64,000 bases of DNA, from the NCBI GenBank assembly GCA_022376465.1, contig JACDTU010000001.1, forward strand, positions 558,001 to 622,000, in the 5' to 3' direction. The notes beneath the pieces are model-generated. The model ran no database searches. It had not been told where the DNA came from and was given only the letters and a program-made list of their open reading frames with translations. Position numbers and translations under genes: made by a program. Of the stretch, positions 35,249 through 45,334 are shown piece by piece. This stretch comes from Cubamyces lactineus. Taxonomy: Eukaryota; Basidiomycota; Agaricomycetes; Polyporales; Polyporaceae. How positions within the stretch are numbered: position 1 is the first letter of the stretch; each line of letters starts with the position of its first letter.

Positions 35249-38200
35249 CTAACTCCTCCAATACTGCGCCCAGTCATGCATCCTATCCAACACCGCCGTA
35301 AATGGCGAGATATCATTCAATAGCTTCTCAAAGTGCTCGATCGCCTGCTCCTCCGTCATTTCAAGACAGAACTTGCCGAGCACCTGCTCGTGCACGTCGC
35401 GCTGCTTGATGTGCGGGATGTTCGCGTCGACCATGAGCGTGACCAAGTTGAGAATGAGGTTCGCGCTCTTGCGCAGAATTGAGAACGCGGTGAAGCAGAA
35501 GCTCTTGAAGCGCGTGTAGTGCACGGACTGGAACCCGCCCATCGCGTCGACCATCTCTTTGCAGATCTTCACGGGTGGGGCGAGTGGCTTGGGATCGCGG
35601 CCGAGGATGTAGCCAAAGTCAACTGTGAACTTTGTGAGCTATGCAACCTTGAAAGACGCGGTACACGCACTTACCATGGAAGAAGTGACCATCTGGGGCT
35701 AAGAGCAAGTTGTCCAAGTGGCGATCGCCGACTCCCAGCAAGTAGGTCATTACGCAATATCCAGCTATGATAGCTATCAGGTTATATTCGCAGACTGGGC
35801 TGCAACGTACTCACCGCAGCTACGCACGAAAGTGTCGATGACACCAGGTTCGACTCCATATGTGCCGACGCTACCCTCATCAGGATAGTTCGCCCGGAGG
35901 TAGTTCAACAGCGTCCCATGCTCGCTCACGATGGCCGCAATTGTCTTGCTAGGGATAAACTGCACCATACCCTGACTCGGACCCGTCGCCAATACATCAT
36001 ACGGGCTGAGCTTCAGGTCAAGGTTCTCCTTCCTCAGCAACCTATCCATCAGCGTGAACAGCTGTATGACGAGCTGATCTTGGCGCATATCGTCCCCGTC
36101 CTTGAAGATGACCGGGTACTCTCCGCCGCCGGCGCACTGGAAGTACAGCAGCATCGGGAACATGTTCGACTTGAATACGCTCGACTTCTCCGCGATGATA
36201 CCTGTGACCTGCACGCGCGCGTTGAGCGGGAGGGGCAGCGGCGGCATCGATGCGAGGTTGTTCTTCGAGTCCGCGAGGAACGCGCGCAGCTTTTCGATCT
36301 TCTTGGGGCGTGGGTCCTTGGACATGCGCAGATCCCGCGCTCGCTTCGCGAGAGTGTCGACGAGCTCGCCTTGGCGTCTCATGAGATCTCGTCTCTCGTC
36401 GCCGTTGTCCTGATCAAAGTCTTAGGTGAGGGACGCGACCAAATGTGAGCAGACACCTACCTCGAGAATCTTCATGAACTTGAAGACCACTCTGCCATAC
36501 ATTTTCGCCATCACCTTGTCCTCCATGGCGACCTCGACCATAAGGTACCAATGGAAGCGGTTGCCCAGGATCGGATTGCGGACTGCTCGTGAGATAAGGA
36601 AATCCGCCAGGCCGCTGTCATCATACGACACTGCGCTCGTCGTAGAGCGCAACGATCGCTGGTCACTCGCCGTGCTTTCGAACTTCAGTGCTTGCACCAG
36701 CTGTAACAGGTACAGGTATAACTCCTGCAGGAAGCACGAATGTCAGGTTCATCCCTTGTGTGGCCGATGGCACACCTACGTCGTCGTCTGCTCTGCTAAG
36801 CTGCTTGACTGCGTATGCTCTCACACGGGAATCGACTGTGTTCGGGCCAAGTAGCTCCAGGGCGTCATCTATGTCGATTTCTGTCCACTGGGGTAATAGC
36901 TCTTCGACAGCTTGCTTGACCTCAGAAGGATCTCTCCAAGTGACGGACTTCAGGAACTTGGTAAGGCCGCGCTTATCTCTCGTGAGATAGAAGCGGAACT
37001 TCCAGATGAGGTCTTTCTCCTCGGAGTTGAGCGGCTGACTTGGAGCGTAGTTCAGGATGTGCTGGCATGTAACACCTCTATCAGGAACTGCCGTACAGAG
37101 CAAATATGGAGCTACATACCGACAGTTCGTCCCGGATCTTCGCGTTGGGCTTCAACTCGCGGTCATATGGGCTGCTTCTGTGACTGCGGACGAGTCTACG
37201 GTGCTTATCCTCGACGGGGTTCTCGCGTGCAATATCGGGATCGACGATTTGCCACAAATGTGTATCGGACAAGAGAGAGGTAGTCGGCGCAGCAGGCGTG
37301 ACGACAACGGGTGATGTCGTTGACGTAGAGGGGACGCTGGACGCATCCTGACATATTGAGATGAGAAGAGGCACCGCTCGTAATGAATTCCAACCTACCG
37401 GCTCACTGAAGATTACTGGGAAGTCGAAGCGAGGTAGGTCAATGTACAAATACAGATTCTCGCTCTTCTCAGTCTCGGCCTATGTACAACGTTGTTAGGA
37501 CAACTGCCCGGTATCGTACGACAAGTTGAACTCACAGCGTGTATTTCAGCCATCTTCCTGAACGCTAGAGCGTCCAACCAGTCTGATTTGGGCAGGTCGC
37601 CCCGTTCAAACTTTTTGACCAGCTGCAAAGAAATCAGAATAGCTATACAACGGATTGCAAAAGGGCTACCTTCTCAAGCCGACCCATCTCGTCCCGTGTG
37701 CCGATCTTGCTCGGCGTCGTGGATTCGTTGGCTCCGTCGGCTTCCCTATCCGGCCAAAGGATCATACGGTGCTTCCCCCGCCTCAGCGTCCTGCGGATAA
37801 TTCTGTTGAGCAGCCGGTCACAGACTATGAAGTACTGTGCACACCATTTCTTGCCGAACAAGCGGAACGTAGTCCCTCCGACAGGCACAGCAGACCTGGG
37901 ACCTGCGATGTCCCAGACAGTGAAGGTGATCTGGGAGTTGAGTGGGAGATCGCAGTAACGTATTGGAAATGTGATCCATTCGTTCCACCTTGTGCGACTC
38001 AGCGTCCGGAGTAGTAGCCACTAGGCAGCGAACGGCTCACGTGTAGTCTTTCTTGAACGCCTTGAACGACGTACGGAAGGGAATCGTCAGAGGCTTGTTG
38101 TCCGCCACAAGTTGGCACGTCACATAGAGGTCCGAGAAGCTCCTTTGCTATGGTCATCCTGAGATACGGGTGGATGAGGGAAAGGGCTTATGCTCACGGT

Positions 38201-38423
38201 GATTGCTGCACGCCGTGAAAGCGCAGCTCCGGCTTCTCCAAGACCTCGGTGAAAGGATAAGGCTTGCGATTACCCTCAAGCTGAGATCTGCGTTACATTT
38301 CAAGGTAGGTGATGAGGACGGCATGTACACTGAGACGGTGGGTGCGTACATCCTGAAGGTAACAGGCATCTTGAGGTCGCTCAGCTTGGCGAAGGTGAAG
38401 TCATCGCGATTGTCCTTGTCCAT
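35249..38423 (-). CDS. VPS34: Class III phosphatidylinositol 3-kinase Vps34
   Basis: Makes PI3P from phosphatidylinositol on endosomes and the phagophore, in complexes with Vps15, Vps30/Atg6 and Atg14 or Vps38. Exon 1 from 38423 reads [17 protein letters not shown]. The C2 domain follows ([34 protein letters not shown], then [20 protein letters not shown]), then a linker, then the helical PIK accessory domain ([20 protein letters not shown], then [20 protein letters not shown]). The kinase domain carries [20 protein letters not shown], the catalytic loop [14 protein letters not shown] and the DFG segment [19 protein letters not shown]. The C-terminal helix ends DWAQYWRS at 35249. All expected catalytic residues are visible. 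Many short introns; total length is consistent with family members of roughly 850-900 residues. Confidence 0.95.
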
Positions 38424-38746: not shown

Positions 38747-39810
38747 ATGAGTGCGCCACACGCGATAACCACCGAGATTCTAGAGACACTCTCGCCCCAG
38801 AACAGATTATGCATAGAACGACTTAGGAGGCATCAACCGGAAGAAGTCGATCTGTTCGTTCGTCTCAACCAATCCTCACGACTGCATGAGACTCATTCCA
38901 AGCTCATAGCTCTAACTATCCTCGGGGTAAACTGGCGGCGGTTTTGGTCTTGCTGTTCGAGAAGGCTGGCGAACTGCGAGTCCTGTTGACCACCCGGTCA
39001 AAGTCTCTTCGCACACATCCCGGTCAAGTCGCGTTGCCCGGAGGCAGAGTTGATGCGACCGACGCAGACGTGTTTGAGACTGCAGTAAGCCTGCGCTCAT
39101 TTCTGTCGCGCTGACCGACGTGGAAGCTTTCTCGTAGTACCGCGAAGCGCATGAAGAAGTCGGCCTGCCCCGAGGCTACCCTCACGTCTATACTGTCTGC
39201 ACCCTGCGACCCTATATATCCTCTGCCAAACTCCTCGTTACACCAGTGGTCGCTCTCCTCACGAATCTTTCGATCATGGACAGTTTTGTGCCCTCACCCG
39301 GGGAGGTCGACCGAGTTTTTGAACACCCTCTCGAAGCTATACTTGATCCAAGTCTTGTAAGCAAAGAGAAGCTTGCACCGAAAGGTAGCGCGGATTGGCC
39401 ATACGAGGACGATCTTTATGTGAGGCGTTATTTACTTATATCGTGATTTATCGCACTCAATGAAACACAGAACTACTCCGACATAGATTTACCGTGGTTG
39501 GGGAATAGCACCTACCGCATGCACAGATTCCGCTCAACTGCCTTTGCGATCAAGGGGTTGACCTCAGATATTCTAGTGTGTGGTTTCACCGAATCCGTTC
39601 GTCAGCAATCTCTGACCATTCATTGGACAGATCGCGACCGCCGAAATCGCCTATGAGAAACCGCCGCTATACGAACGATACGCGCCTGGACAGCTACAGA
39701 CATTCGCGCCAATTCTGCGCATTCTAGAGGCAGACTATGGCGTGCAACACGCCGTGTCCGGCACTTCGACGCCAACGCCGAAGGTGGAAGTTGGTGTCCG
39801 CAGTGGTTAA
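38747..39810 (+). CDS. Nudix hydrolase, CoA diphosphatase type (Pcd1/NUDT7-like)
   Basis: About 282 residues from exons 38747-38853, 38910-39084, 39138-39419, 39471-39575 and 39631-39810, all in frame. Joining the first two exons gives EEVDLSNYPRGKLAAVLVLL, typical of the CoA-type Nudix start. HPGQVALPGGRVD follows, and the Nudix helix REAHEEVGL is completed across intron 2. In the Nudix signature Asp replaces one Glu, as is common in CoA/acyl-CoA hydrolases. Family members split CoA or oxidised CoA into phosphopantetheine and 3',5'-ADP, often in peroxisomes or mitochondria. No C-terminal SKL-type signal is seen (it ends VEVGVRSG), so location is open. Intron 1 has an unusual GTTCGT donor but keeps frame and gives the expected motif. 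Confidence 0.88.
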
Positions 39811-40134: not shown

Positions 40135-40238
40135 CCATATAATAGTCTCGGCGCGCAGCTACTCTCTCCTCCCTCCCACCACTCGCCTTTTTCCCTCTTC
40201 ACACCTACTACACCTACTTCTTCATCTATCTAGTTGTT
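40135..40238 (+). promoter_or_regulatory. TATA-like box and pyrimidine-rich leader
   Basis: A TATA-like ccatataatag at 40135-40145 lies about 95 bp before the ATG at 40239. From about 40160 to 40236 the sequence is almost pure C/T with some A (ctcctccctcccaccac and similar), as in leaders of strongly expressed basidiomycete genes. It supports transcription of the unusual array that follows. Confidence 0.55.
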
Positions 40239-40571
40239 ATGTTCTCTAAGTTCTCCTCTCTGCCTTTCCGCCGTGCCCGTGACGCTGGCCGTCGCAAGTC
40301 CGACTACATCAAGCTCACCGACTACACCGACCCCGCCGTGCCCCCCTCCCCGACCGGCTGGACCTGGTGCGATTCCATGCAAGTATGGCTCCCCGAAGAT
40401 CTCAACTTCTCCTCCGGCCTCATTTTCGGCAACAACCTCGCCTGCAACGGCTGCCAGACCCCAGCCCCCTCCCGTCCCAAGCTAGTCCAACGCCTCACGA
40501 GCTCCGAGTACTGGCGCCGCCCCCTCCAAATCCGCAAAAACCGCAAAAACGTTTCCATCGTCACCGACTGG
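40239..40571 (+). CDS. Codon-biased 5' coding exon of the hairpin-intron gene
   Basis: Open from the ATG at 40239 (MFSKFSSLPFRRARDAGRR, then KSDYIKLTDYTDPAVPPSPT, then GWTWCDSMQVWLPEDLNFS). Codons are strongly biased to C-ending ones (TTC, GAC, TAC, ATC, ACC, AAG), unlike most genes here and typical of highly expressed fungal genes. I do not recognise the family. The frame stays open to about 40900, but the bias fades after about 40560, so the exon probably ends near there or by 40795. How it is spliced to the downstream repeated exons, and whether those are coding, could not be decided. Confidence 0.5.
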
Positions 40572-40800
40572 TCGGTTGTGCGAGCTTCCGGCGTGACCTT
40601 CTCCCAGATACAACTCCAGGCTATTGGGAACGCCGAGTCTTCTTCCTGCTGTGGATCGGTGGGCAGCCTCCATTACCGTGGCTGTCAGCCGCCTGCTGAC
40701 ATTCGCATAGGCCAAGCCTTCCAGTGGTCTGCCTCGTCAATACCTCTTTTAGCGTTCTCGGAATCATCAAGGAGCTGCGCGCGCAAGGACGTCAGGTACG

Positions 40801-40873
40801 CTTCTGCGGGTGGGGTGGGCGGTGGGCGAGGGGTCATGGCCGAGGACCCTGCCGTCTGCTTCGCACGCCGAGG
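40801..40873 (+). ncRNA. Intronic hairpin, copy 1
   Basis: 73-nt hairpin starting 5 nt after the GT at 40796. Basal stem cttctgcg with cgccgagg (7 of 8 pairs), asymmetric internal loop, upper stem ggggtc with gaccct, loop atggccgag. The middle stem is weakened by an A-C mismatch and a G-T pair relative to copies 2 and 4. Confidence 0.6.
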
Positions 40874-41093
40874 CATTTCCATTCTATCTGCAGAAGAACA
40901 ATAAAACCACATAAAGAACTTGGCTAAACACCTATATCCCAAAGCGTTTCTTCTCTTTCTCTCCACCCTCTCTATTTCTCAGCTTAGATATCGGTCGTGA
41001 ACTTTCCCTCCAAAACCAAGCGTCGACGTCAAGGAGCTGCGTGCGCACAAGATGGCAAGGTGTCCACTCTTCGACCATGGGCGGACGAGGTAA

Positions 41094-41166
41094 CCTTGAC
41101 GTTGCTGGTAGGCGGCGGGCGAGGGGTCATGGCCAAGGACCCCGTCGTCTGCTTCGCGCGTCGAGG
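41094..41166 (+). ncRNA. Intronic hairpin, copy 2
   Basis: 73 nt, starting 4 nt after the GT at 41090. Basal stem ccttgacg with cgtcgagg (8 of 8, one wobble), middle stem gcgggcga with tcgtctgc (8 of 8, two wobbles), apical stem ggggtc with gacccc (6 of 6), loop atggccaag, one bulged G. With copy 4 this is one of the two best-paired copies. Confidence 0.65.
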
Positions 41167-41373
41167 CATTCAGTTTTCAGAAGAAAATCACAAATCTCCG
41201 CGTCTGGTACGCTGAACATGTTAGAGCCCGCAGCCTTCCGTTCCGTTCCCCCTAGATTTCTCCAGGTTTTGTGAAGGTCGAGCGTTAACATAGAATCAAC
41301 GAGCTGCGTGCGCGGAAGACTCAAGTGCAAAATGGCAAGATGTCTGCTCCCGGCATTGGGGCGGACTAGGTAA

Positions 41374-41446
41374 CCCCGGCGTTGCTGGTGGGCGGCGGGC
41401 GAGGGGTCATGGCCGAAGACCTCGTCGTCGGCTTCGCGCGTCGGGA
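41374..41446 (+). ncRNA. Intronic hairpin, copy 3
   Basis: 73 nt, starting 4 nt after the GT at 41370. Basal stem ccccggcg with cgtcggga (7 of 8). Apical stem ggggtc with gacctc keeps pairing through a G-T wobble. Loop atggccgaa. One G-G mismatch in the middle stem. Confidence 0.62.
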
Positions 41447-41650
41447 TATTCATTTCTTTCAGAAGAAAACACAAAACTTCGCGTCTGGTACGCTGAACAT
41501 GTTAGACTCCGTAGCTCTTCCCTCTTCTCCACAGCTTCTGCGACACCCTGTTCATCGAGACCAAGCTACGACCTCAACGAGCTGCGTGCGCGGAGAAGAC
41601 GTCAACAGGTTCGCCCTTCAGTCCCGCCAAGAGGGGGGGCGAATAGGTAA

Positions 41651-41723
41651 CCCCGGCGTTGCCGGTGGGCGGCGGGCGAGGGGTCATGGCCGAAGACCTC
41701 GTCGTCTGCTTCGCGCGTCGGGG
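41651..41723 (+). ncRNA. Intronic hairpin, copy 4
   Basis: 73 nt, starting 4 nt after the GT at 41647. Basal stem ccccggcg with cgtcgggg pairs 8 of 8, with changes on both strands relative to copy 2. Middle stem gcgggcga with tcgtctgc pairs fully. Apical stem ggggtc with gacctc. Confidence 0.65.
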
Positions 41724-41938
41724 ACGTTTGACTTGAAGAAAATTCAGATAAAATCCCGCATAGACTACGCTAAACACCTTAGACTCCTCGCCTCTCCTGC
41801 TTCCTTTCTTTTCCTTCTAGAGTCCCCGAACGACCCCTCAACACCAAGCATCGCCTTTAACGAGCTGCGCGTGCGTCAAGATAGGCAAGACAAATCTTCA
41901 AGCAACCCGTCCGCAAGTCCTGGACGATGTCAGGTACG

Positions 41939-42011
41939 CTTCGGCGTTGCTGGTGGGCGGCAGGCGAGGGGTCATGGCCGAGGACCCTGTTGTCCGCTTC
42001 GCGCGTCGAGG
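41939..42011 (+). ncRNA. Intronic hairpin, copy 5
   Basis: 73 nt, starting 5 nt after the GT at 41934. Basal stem cttcggcg with cgtcgagg pairs 8 of 8 using wobbles. Middle stem gcaggcga with ttgtccgc has one A-C mismatch. Apical stem ggggtc with gaccct, loop atggccgag. Confidence 0.62.
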
Positions 42012-42294
42012 CATTTTCCTCCTTCAGAAGAAAACCATAAAATACGCGCGCAGGCACGCTGAACACATTAGATTCCCATAGTCTCTTCTCCTGTTCTCGC
42101 TCTCGCTCTCCTCTCGTTCTCCTCTCGTTCTCGTCCTAGCTTCGTCGCAGATATCTCCAAAACACCAAAACACCGAGAAAACATCAAACCACAAAAACAG
42201 GTCAAAATCTCATACAAGGACGTCCACATCAACGAGCTGCGCGCGCGAACTCTCCCCCAAGTCCCCGCGTCGAAGAGCGGGCGGCCCAGGTATA

Positions 42295-42369
42295 CCCTTG
42301 CGTGCGGTGCGTGCGGGCGGGCGAGGGGTCATGGCCGAGGACCCCGTCTGTCGGTGCTGTGCGCCGGGG
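42295..42369 (+). ncRNA. Intronic hairpin, copy 6
   Basis: 75 nt, starting 5 nt after the GT at 42290. Basal stem cccttgcg with cgccgggg (7 of 8), apical stem ggggtc with gacccc, loop atggccgag. The middle stem and the downstream A-rich patch are more diverged than in the other copies. Confidence 0.55.
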
Positions 42370-42375
42370 AGGACT

Positions 42376-43235
42376 CGTCCTTCTTCTCCAGTAGACTCTC
42401 TCGCGTTGTCCCATGCTCGCTGAACACTCCTAGCCACAGTCCTCCCTTTTCTTTCCGGTTTCTCTGTTTATTTGTAGATTACCGAACGTGCGTGAAGCAC
42501 CGAAGATACCCTCCGGAGCCAAGACGACGACGATTCTGCGCACATCCCACGGCGGTTATGACATTCTCAGTAGATCGTTGGATTTGGGCTAGACGTCGGC
42601 GACGCCGGGCGAGGGGGTTGGCCTCCCTGTTGACCTCGGTGCCCTCGACGATGGTACAGTATCCCATCTCTTTCTCTCTTCTTTCTTCTTTTTCTCTTCT
42701 CGTTCTCTCTTCGTCCCTCTCTCTCCGCGCGCAACAGAACTTACCCGCATAGCCACGACTTCCAATCGACTGAGGGGGGCGACGCTACGAAGAGCCATGA
42801 AGGCGGCCAGACGAGCAGGTGAGTCACTCGTTCTGGTCCGGCGGCGTCGGACCACTATGCCCTCCCCAATCCGCAAAAAGCGTCCAAGCCAGGTGCGTCG
42901 GTATCGTACGCGCAAAGATCCGAGGTGCGTGGAGGGAGACCTGTGTGCGCTCACTTGCACAGACGCATCGCCTGTACGAAGCTAGTTAGCCGCGTAGAGC
43001 TTAGGTGGTGAGTGCTGGTTTATCTTGGCGCAGTTCCAGACTTGCTAACCGCAGATCATCCCAATCGCGAATGCGAGATCCTTGCCCACTCTTGAGGCGA
43101 TGCTGATCGCCCAGATCATTTGCCATGCTCGTAAGAATACACGTGTCGTGAACAAAAACGGTTGTAAACAGCTTCTGACATACATGTCATGAAGCCTAAA
43201 GTTGCGAACCACATCTCTTACCCAGATGATCTACT
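42376..43235 (+). other. 3' part of the hairpin-intron transcript and spacer
   Basis: After copy 6 there are further splice-like signals: an acceptor at 42477, a donor near 42654 with a C/T-rich intron to an acceptor at about 42738, a donor at about 42820, and an acceptor-bounded protein-like piece at 43055-43131 (IIPIANARSLPTLEAMLIAQ) after a cttgctaac branch site. I could not assemble these into one reading frame. A degenerate hairpin-core lookalike is at 42604-42650. The right end approaches the convergent 3' end of the dioxygenase gene. Confidence 0.35.
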
Positions 43236-45334
43236 TCACAGCGAGGGATGCCAAACGCTGCGCCCGTTGACGCTCGCAGTCGCAACGGTATCGCTCGTGA
43301 CAGGGTCCGGCGCGAATCGCTCACTCAGCACGGCGAGCTTCGAGCGATACTCGTCCATGCCAATGTACGCGCCGCACATCCGCCGCTTGCCGTTAAACGC
43401 AGACCGTCCGTGCAACACGCGGTGATTGTCCACGACTGCGAGCAATGCACGAGTGAGTATCGAACGGGCGAGCTGATTGACGGTCAGGTACACGTACCGA
43501 CGGCAGTCCCGGGAGAAAGCTGGACCCAGTATTCCGAGTCCGGACTCGACAGGTGCTTGTACCACGTCCTGATAGCATCATACCTACCAAAGTTCTCAGC
43601 GACGCCTCCTCACACACTACACACCATACCCGTCTACTCACCACGGCTCGACTTGGTCAGGCCTCAAGTTCCGCAACACGCTCCGGTCATCGTTATTCCA
43701 CCGCACCTGCACGAGCTCGCCGTCCTCGTGCTTCAGCACCGGGGTCTGGCGCGTGCTCGGCGTGTACAGCGCCTCGGGCTCGCCCGCCGCGTGCGTCGGA
43801 ACGGGTACGGTGGATAGGAGCTCGTATGCTTCCGGGTGTAGCTCTTTCAGGAGGGAGGCGACGTAGAAGCCGTCGACGAGCAGTGTCGCGCCGCCCGAGC
43901 CGCCTGTGTGCTCTAAGAGATGGAATAGCTGTAGGCCGCATGGGTCCGTCTGCAGCTTTGTTATTACCGTGGATACGATACGATAGATCTGCTTGGCTCA
44001 CGAAGTATGTCGTATCGGTATGTGCCCCCAGGGCTAACGTCGTGTAGGCTGTGTCTCCCTTGGCAAGGTCCGAGGTAAAGTCCCAAAACGTGCCATCTGA
44101 ACGATATGATAAGCCAATAGCGTAGGTCGCGATAGCTGCGACTTACACTGTGTTTCTCGAATGAAGCCTATCCGCCGAGATAGCTCCTCCGTCGCTTCGG
44201 GCGTCGCGGGTACACCCGACACAAAGCAGAACCCGAACTTGTCCTGCGAACCGCCCGACGTGAACTCCTGAGGTCTCAAGTTGTTCAGGATAGGTGCTTA
44301 CGACGTTCGAGAGCCACTTGAACAATCCGCGATTATCCTGGGCCATCGCCTCCTCGTATGTTACAGTAGGCGGATCCTGCTGTATCTTGGCGCCCCATAG
44401 TATCTTCCTGCACAAGATATTAGGGCGCGCTCATATGATACATGGTCATTGGGCTTACTCTGAAGATGATGTACGGGCCATGGGTGGGTCATACGAGTTG
44501 TGGCGAAGCCATGACCAAGGGTATAGCGATACATGAGGTTGCGATGAGGGCCCTGACAGCGAACATGAGCACATCAACGGCACCATTTGACCTGAGGCGC
44601 ACCCACAGTGCACTTCGAGCCCTTCCGGCTTGGACTGTACGTGCTTGGGCTTGATATCCGCTGGTATCTGCTTCAAGCGCTCAATCGACGTCCTGCAGCG
44701 ATCGCGCGAGGGAGCACACCCACATCAAAGGTATTCACAAGGCGTTGCTTCGTGATGGGGTGGAAGCATTCTGGACAGCGACAGTGGTCGCGCAGCCAGA
44801 TATGATGACTGACAGAGTGCAGCCGTCGGTCCGTCAACGAATTGGCTTGCCCCGTCCAGTCGTGATAAACACTCACTATCGAGAGTAGGTAGTCTCGTCC
44901 CAGCCTAGGACCACCTTCCGGTCATCTATCCTGCTCGTCGGCGGGGCTGCGACGACTCCAGGGGTCCCTAGCGAGGTAGAGGGTGCTGCAGAACTCGCAG
45001 ACGCAGAACCCGCATGTTTCGAGTGCGGAGGCGAAGTAGGAGGAGCAGAAGTACGCTTGACGGCGCTAGACGAGAAGGTCGCCCTGCGAACGGGAGCAGT
45101 GGGCCTGGCCGCGTTTCCGCCGGCCCTGCGTAACTTTGAGCGAAAAGGAAAGTCAATATGCCCAGACGTCGCACTCGAGCTTATATGGACATGGGACACG
45201 GGGTGCTGCATCTCCCGCCCCGCACGCACCGTGGTCGTATTCCTGGCGGCCGGACCAGGTACCCGCAGAGTTCGCGACGAGGTTTTGAGGCTTGCGATCA
45301 TGCCGCTCATCTTCCCACTTCGTAGACCCGTCAA
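43236..45334 (-). CDS. Trimethyllysine / gamma-butyrobetaine 2-oxoglutarate dioxygenase
   Basis: Fe(II)/2-oxoglutarate hydroxylase of carnitine biosynthesis. Exon 1 (45334 down to about 44884) encodes a Ser/Arg/Ala-rich, probably mitochondrial presequence ending VVLGWDETTYSR and joins in frame to HHIWLRDHCRCPECFHPITK, the N-terminal zinc-binding (DUF971-like) domain. KPEGLEVH and SLYPWSWLRHNSYDPP follow. The TauD-type catalytic domain contains DKFGFCFVSGVPATPEATEE, the HxD motif in LALGAHTDTTYFTDPCGLQL, and the distal His/Arg segment VVVDNHRVLHGRSAFNGKRR. It ends SVWHPSL at 43236. The presequence slightly favours trimethyllysine dioxygenase over the butyrobetaine enzyme; sequence reading alone cannot separate them. 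The start could also be a Met 8 or 11 codons downstream. Confidence 0.87.

Follow-up and report, generated by a model that had tools for sequence, protein, structure and literature searches.

Six tandem units, each carrying a hairpin of 73 to 75 nt with a nearly invariant tip, follow the stop codon of an orphan gene in the fungus Cubamyces lactineus. Base changes in the hairpin arms tend to preserve the pairing, and in five units the hairpin is followed by a constant block that resembles a branch point and acceptor. Our preferred reading, to which we give somewhat less than an even chance, is that the array may act as a tandem cis-acting splicing switch. A splicing-control element was among the alternatives named in a first-pass annotation of the same DNA, and it becomes the favoured reading here. 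Its main rival is neutral duplication, which we consider rather unlikely.

If the preferred reading is true, tip, donor and acceptor have been kept amid drift, and the units form a natural mutational series for the control of splicing by intron structure. This series sits beside a clade-specific orphan gene, and the constant loop would offer a way to identify a factor bound to it. To our knowledge, tandem hairpins that hide donors have not been described from a fungal 3′ region, and the titles and abstracts of the open-licence papers surveyed mention none. A further proposal is that of a new class of RNA element, in which tandem donor-hiding hairpins, with an invariant loop read by a candidate factor, would fix the fate of an orphan mRNA through its 3′ introns, and copy number would tune the steepness. 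This we think doubtful.

Organization of the array

The window is the whole stretch of 64,000 nucleotides that was analysed, and all features of the array are given on its + strand. The upstream gene, C8Q73DRAFT_831520, encodes a protein of 153 aa and occupies 40239–40752 on the + strand. Exact splice mapping places its exons at 40239–40658 and 40711–40752, with the stop codon at 40750–40752. The first element of the array, a 20-nt exonic block called motif A, starts at 40766, 13 nt past this stop codon, a position on which the first-pass annotation did not remark. The array therefore begins in the 3′ flank of C8Q73DRAFT_831520, most likely inside its 3′ UTR.

The units are 262–372 nt long, the end of the last having been placed by hand. 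Their order of parts is motif A, a variable stretch, AG/GTA, the hairpin, a tail that contains CTRAACA, and a pyrimidine-rich stretch that was read by eye. Motif A lies at 40766–40785, 41028–41047, 41295–41314, 41573–41592, 41856–41875 (with one mismatch) and 42228–42247. The hairpins lie at 40800–40874, 41094–41166, 41374–41446, 41651–41723, 41938–42012 and 42295–42369; those of units 3 and 4 are placed by the consensus fold, unit 4 having its own best fold in another register, and the rest by folding. All six are where the first-pass annotation had put them. It had also given lengths of 73 nt for five hairpins and 75 nt for the last. This is right for the consensus fold and for unit 6, which has one extra base per arm, but units 1 and 5 also come to 75 nt when an extra closing pair is included. 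Unit 5 as a whole exceeds units 3 and 4 by about 90 nt, in part because it contains a CT-rich tandem repeat at 42093–42145.

One alternative takes the pyrimidine-rich stretch as a promoter or start region, so that the hairpins would be independent small noncoding genes, each in its own short transcript. CT-richness may mark promoters in these fungi. In units 2–6, motif A is preceded by a CT-rich stretch, as is the start codon of the upstream gene, and every unit has a conserved motif A in the same position. However, unit 1 has no CT-rich stretch, and motif A there comes directly after the coding exon. Independent genes seem very unlikely to us.

The 21-mer core of the hairpin, GAGGGGTCATGGCCRARGACC, occurs exactly at 40828, 41121, 41401, 41678, 41966 and 42323, and is absent from all of 100 dinucleotide-shuffled versions of the window. 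When up to three mismatches are allowed, the whole assembly (36,338,820 bases in 43 contigs) yields eight matches, namely the six of the array and two with three mismatches. The latter are at control level, as the reversed pattern gave three. With model R1 they score 18.4 and 16.6 bits, which is noise level, and they were set aside as chance loci. A 14-mer of the core picks out 73 stretches in viral contigs which, used as a noise set, reach up to 22.1 bits; model R1 gives the minus strand of unit 2 itself 16.3 bits. The 21-mer was found in no viral contig, and a 23-mer in no bacterial or archaeal contig. Pattern and DNA searches of the fungus's own genome for further copies returned, beyond control level, the array alone. 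The array is thus a single locus in one genome and not a dispersed repeat. A decayed seventh hairpin is possible at 42578–42667 (+), where model R1 gives 15.6 bits (E 0.087 in the window). Since this score is at noise level, the one argument for the candidate is its place after the array.

Restriction to a single locus in one genome is in keeping with the main rival explanation. It holds that tandem duplication of a GC-rich unit was followed by uneven divergence which, together with the exchange of short stretches through unequal crossing-over or gene conversion, mimics the conservation of a hairpin.

Conservation among the copies

The first-pass annotation had described a conserved core with diverged surroundings, and this description is borne out. 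Mean pairwise identity over the six copies is 0.91 in the tip, 0.84 in motif A, 0.72 in each arm and 0.63 in the tail, whose end was set provisionally in unit 1. In the exon parts it falls to 0.41 for the variable stretch and 0.50 for the following exon part, values of 0.4–0.5 being assumed to be about the level of unrelated sequence with the aligner used.

Motif A is a second conserved block, which the first-pass annotation did not mention, and its flanks are not kept. At up to two mismatches, the array holds five exact copies and one with a single mismatch. No exact match occurs elsewhere, and the totals at this threshold are 52+33 compared with 64+50 for the reversed control. A pairing between motif A and the hairpin, drawn by eye, was rejected since it is not kept across copies. 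A look for G-quadruplexes, also by eye, found long G-runs in unit 1 that are interrupted in unit 5.

Neutral duplication gains some support from unit 3, which is a mosaic: its 5′ arm (0.95) and tip (1.00) are like those of unit 4, and its tail (0.91) is like that of unit 2. This suggests that sequence has been exchanged between copies, and such exchange would add to their likeness. It is harder to reconcile with unit 6, whose 31-nt tip is 0.90–0.97 identical to the other five although its arms are only 0.56–0.69 identical. It would be odd for a conversion tract to stop exactly at both ends of the tip. Conservation also extends to motif A and the acceptor block but not to the stretches between them. 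A tip that stays constant while the stems vary suggests that a factor may bind it.

The likeness could instead lie at the protein level, in a repeated coding exon or a short peptide gene. In several copies, [NK]ELRA can be read from motif A and GRGVMAED from the tip. However, motif A of unit 3 is flanked by in-frame stops on both sides, and one-base inserts in unit 6 shift the frame of the tip. A 230-aa frame at 41370–42062, the one frame searched, gave no protein hit at E ≤ 10. We give a coding repeat scarcely any credence.

Structure of the hairpins

In isolation, the hairpins fold on the + strand with energies of -39.1 to -44.4 kcal/mol (z -1.54 to -3.55), compared with -21.5 to -26.1 kcal/mol (z -0.46 to +1.30) on the reverse strand. 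Good folding on the + strand only points to RNA. The strand difference fits the presence of G-U pairs, whose counterparts on the opposite strand are A-C. Among GC-matched 85-nt windows from the same 64 kb, those folding as well numbered 4 of 401, 0 of 1173 and 14 of 824 for units 1–3, and 4 of 401, 1 of 824 and 3 of 186 for units 4–6.

The six-copy alignment has 90.5% of its 168 cells paired, compared with 87.5% in shuffled versions, none of 500 being as high. Two-sided changes occupy 6 cells, against a shuffled mean of 2.4 (4/500). The number of pairs with a two-sided change is 4, which is weakly above the shuffles (26/500), and further pair types are in no excess over them (270/500). The covariation score is 0.250, compared with 0.198 for shuffled alignments (5/500) and 0.083–0.148 for slid versions. 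The clearest covarying columns are 8/78, with UA in three copies and CG in three, and 30/56, with GC, GU and AU. Such a modest covariation signal agrees with neutral duplication.

Substitutions in the stems were also randomly re-placed. The real sequences fold better than the mean of these versions in 27 of 30 ordered comparisons, all drawn from the same six related sequences. On the + strand, p ≤ 0.05 is reached in 12 of the 30, and on the minus strand in none. Pairing that is kept on the + strand only argues against neutral duplication. For re-placement towards unit 6, 0 of 5 comparisons reach 0.05 (0.24–0.45, with the two inserted bases excluded). Removing the extra base of the 5′ arm, of the 3′ arm or of both changes the energy of unit 6 from -44.0 to -39.5, -40.0 or -38.1. 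As random deletion pairs average -40.1, the paired inserts of unit 6 are mild support at most.

The tip has two registers, GGU-CAUG-GCC and GGGGUC/GACCNN, of which the latter is dominant in unit 4 and, when the context is long, in unit 2.

When each unit is folded in five contexts, the hairpin of unit 3 holds in all five, and those of units 1, 2 and 4 open in part in the longer ones. The hairpin is nearly lost in unit 5 in the widest context, with 1.2 expected inner pairs, and in unit 6 already within its own 144-nt intron, with 7.4. This opening is a real weakness for any reading based on structure, and the breaking of most hairpins counts in favour of neutral duplication. Long GC-rich RNA is hard to fold computationally, and hairpins may form during transcription. 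The first-pass annotation had argued for selection on an RNA made from the intron or acting in it. Tip conservation, strand-specific folding and kept pairing speak for selection on an RNA of the + strand; the relatedness of the six copies and the disruption in long contexts limit this support.

Putative splice sites

Thirteen local introns served as a reference for splicing. They come from two annotated C. lactineus proteins, the 153-aa hypothetical protein and VPS34, both of which map exactly onto the window. The introns are 47–62 nt long and have G at +5 in 12 of 13 cases; their CTNAN-like branch points were read by eye.

Units 2–6 contain CTRAACA followed by a TAG that ends 9–10 nt past the branch A. 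Over both strands of the window, the CTRAACA...TAG pattern is confined to these five places of the array. Unit 1 has a branch-like block without a nearby YAG. The putative introns run from 41090 to 41224 in unit 2 (GTAACC, hairpin, CTGAAC, TAG), from 41370 to 41505 in unit 3, from 41647 to 41782 in unit 4, from 41934 to 42071 in unit 5 (donor GTACGC) and from 42290 to 42433 in unit 6 (donor GTATAC). From GT to TAG they measure 135, 136, 136, 138 and 144 nt. Without the hairpin they would be 62, 63, 63, 65 and 69 nt, compared with the 47–62 nt of local introns, so that the hairpin seems to have been inserted into an intron that is ordinary in other respects.

Donors were scored with a matrix built from the 13 real local donors, which themselves score 3.6–9.4 when left out one at a time. 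The outer donors score 7.1 (unit 1, GTACGC at 40796–40801), 7.0, 5.9, 5.9, 7.1 and 3.1. Those of units 1–5 are average donors, at the 95th–97th percentile of GTs in the window, and that of unit 6 is weak, at the 83rd. Position +5 is G in units 1 and 5, C in units 2–4 and A in unit 6. The hairpin starts at +5 or +6 of the outer donor GTA.

A better-scoring GT is present within the 5′ arm of all six hairpins, with scores of 10.1, 7.8, 7.6, 9.0, 7.6 and 8.4 in units 1–6. Units 2–5 share the in-arm donor GTRGGC, at a common position in the alignment. The GT of unit 1 at that position scores 6.4, its best in-arm donor being 7 nt further on, and unit 6 has GTGCGT at a different point of the 5′ arm. 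The in-arm GTGGGC is the same donor hexamer as that of the intron of C8Q73DRAFT_831520.

The first-pass annotation had placed the hairpins in six successive introns. The constant branch-point and acceptor block of units 2–6 favours introns, whereas the better-scoring GT in every 5′ arm and the missing YAG of unit 1 do not. On the sequence, it is plausible that units 2–6 contain introns, and the hairpin may lie wholly inside them.

A possible splicing switch

The proposed switch starts with a unit of about 280 nt, directly downstream of a gene confined to the Trametes clade, which would have been amplified in tandem. We infer that the array is transcribed through and that its introns can be spliced. 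A formed hairpin would pair away +5, +6 or both of the outer donor, and the intron would be retained. When isolated hairpins are folded, +6 is paired with a probability of at least 0.98 in units 1, 2, 3, 5 and 6, and of 0.39 in unit 4. In units 1–5 the formed hairpin would, in the consensus fold, also take up the in-arm donor. A factor recognizing the invariant tip might hold the hairpin in place. Once the hairpin opens, splicing of the intron to the CTRAAC...TAG acceptor would be possible.

Splicing of later units would have a further consequence. As the array starts so close past the stop codon, it could expose the mRNA of the upstream gene to nonsense-mediated decay, since exon junctions would then lie far past the stop. 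The first junction would be 43 nt past it and the others further. Several copies could make the response steep. The loop-binding factor and the decay step are guesses.

Comparison with known systems

Structures linked to introns that tune splicing and hide splice signals occur in RPL30 and RPS14B. The yeast gene SUS1 (PMC4691836) resembles the array in having an intron structure able to hide splice signals and change the spliced share. These three are single copies, whereas the array has six tandem copies past the stop codon, with a nearly invariant tip and no known ligand.

A row of hairpins past a stop codon also has a parallel. The iron-responsive-element cassette of transferrin receptor mRNA consists of several hairpins beyond the stop codon and, like the array, combines a constant loop with variable stems. 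Iron-responsive elements, however, are about 30 nt long, have a CAGUGN loop and lie in an exonic UTR; the hairpins of the array are 73–75 nt long, have another loop and are apparently intronic.

Another alternative is that the intron, once excised, or the hairpin in it would persist as a stable small RNA acting in trans, such as a mirtron-like milRNA precursor or another RNA derived from the intron, and the six copies would raise its dose. A stable hairpin of pre-miRNA size beside a donor, repeated six times, would suit this explanation. A 3′-tailed mirtron has a hairpin with one arm beginning at the donor and containing a conserved product of about 22 nt, which is released by splicing and then by Dicer. 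The array shares with it a hairpin near the donor and a tail to the acceptor. The mirtron layout proposed in the first-pass annotation nevertheless fits poorly: the base of a 3′-tailed mirtron is at +1 and its arm is conserved, whereas the base here is at +5 or +6 and the letters after the donor vary between copies. A mirtron is unlikely because it is the tip, and not an arm, that is conserved. No Rfam family supports a trans-acting RNA either. According to PMC9757828, a wholly intronic location of fungal mi/milRNAs occurs "very rarely", the exception being Cryptococcus neoformans. We consider a trans-acting RNA improbable.

The first-pass annotation had also mentioned an H/ACA-like guide RNA. 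H/ACA guide RNAs consist of two hairpins with guide pockets, an H box and an ACA box. Some resemblance exists, as AGAAGA follows the hairpin in units 1, 2, 3 and 5 and an ACA comes further on. Units of the array lack a second full hairpin, however, and units 4 and 6 lack AGAAGA. The 51–58 nt between hairpin and TAG in units 2–6 leave no room for a second full hairpin, which, along with the Rfam result, speaks against such a guide.

Rfam gave no match at the gathering score in the window, which is consistent with the earlier statement that the core belongs to no described family. At E ≤ 10, the region 40200–43200 gave three hits far below their cut-offs, which were taken as chance. A search for tRNA and tmRNA found none.

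Upstream gene and neighbours

A search with the protein of C8Q73DRAFT_831520 at E ≤ 10 gave five hits, all in Cubamyces and Trametes: C. lactineus itself and four other species, C. menziesii, Trametes elegans, T. punicea and T. sanguinea. By this distribution, the gene appears to be an orphan of the Trametes clade. Its DNA occurs once in its own genome. In three of the five homologues Pfam recognizes no family, and a search of solved structures gave just matches with E ≥ 0.7. An AlphaFold model built from five sequences has a mean pLDDT of 39 and is unusable. The homologues share an invariant C-terminus, LPRQYLF, and conserved cysteines.

The array has other genes nearby. A VPS34 phosphatidylinositol 3-kinase gene lies at 35252–38423 on the minus strand and has 12 introns of 47–62 nt. 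The region 38747–39810 presumably holds a Nudix-type hydrolase gene, to judge by resemblance; a Pfam search of two of its open frames found no family. Beyond the array, at 43236–44921 on the minus strand, is a gene for a gamma-butyrobetaine hydroxylase-like dioxygenase, with GBBH-like_N above the cut-off and TauD below it.
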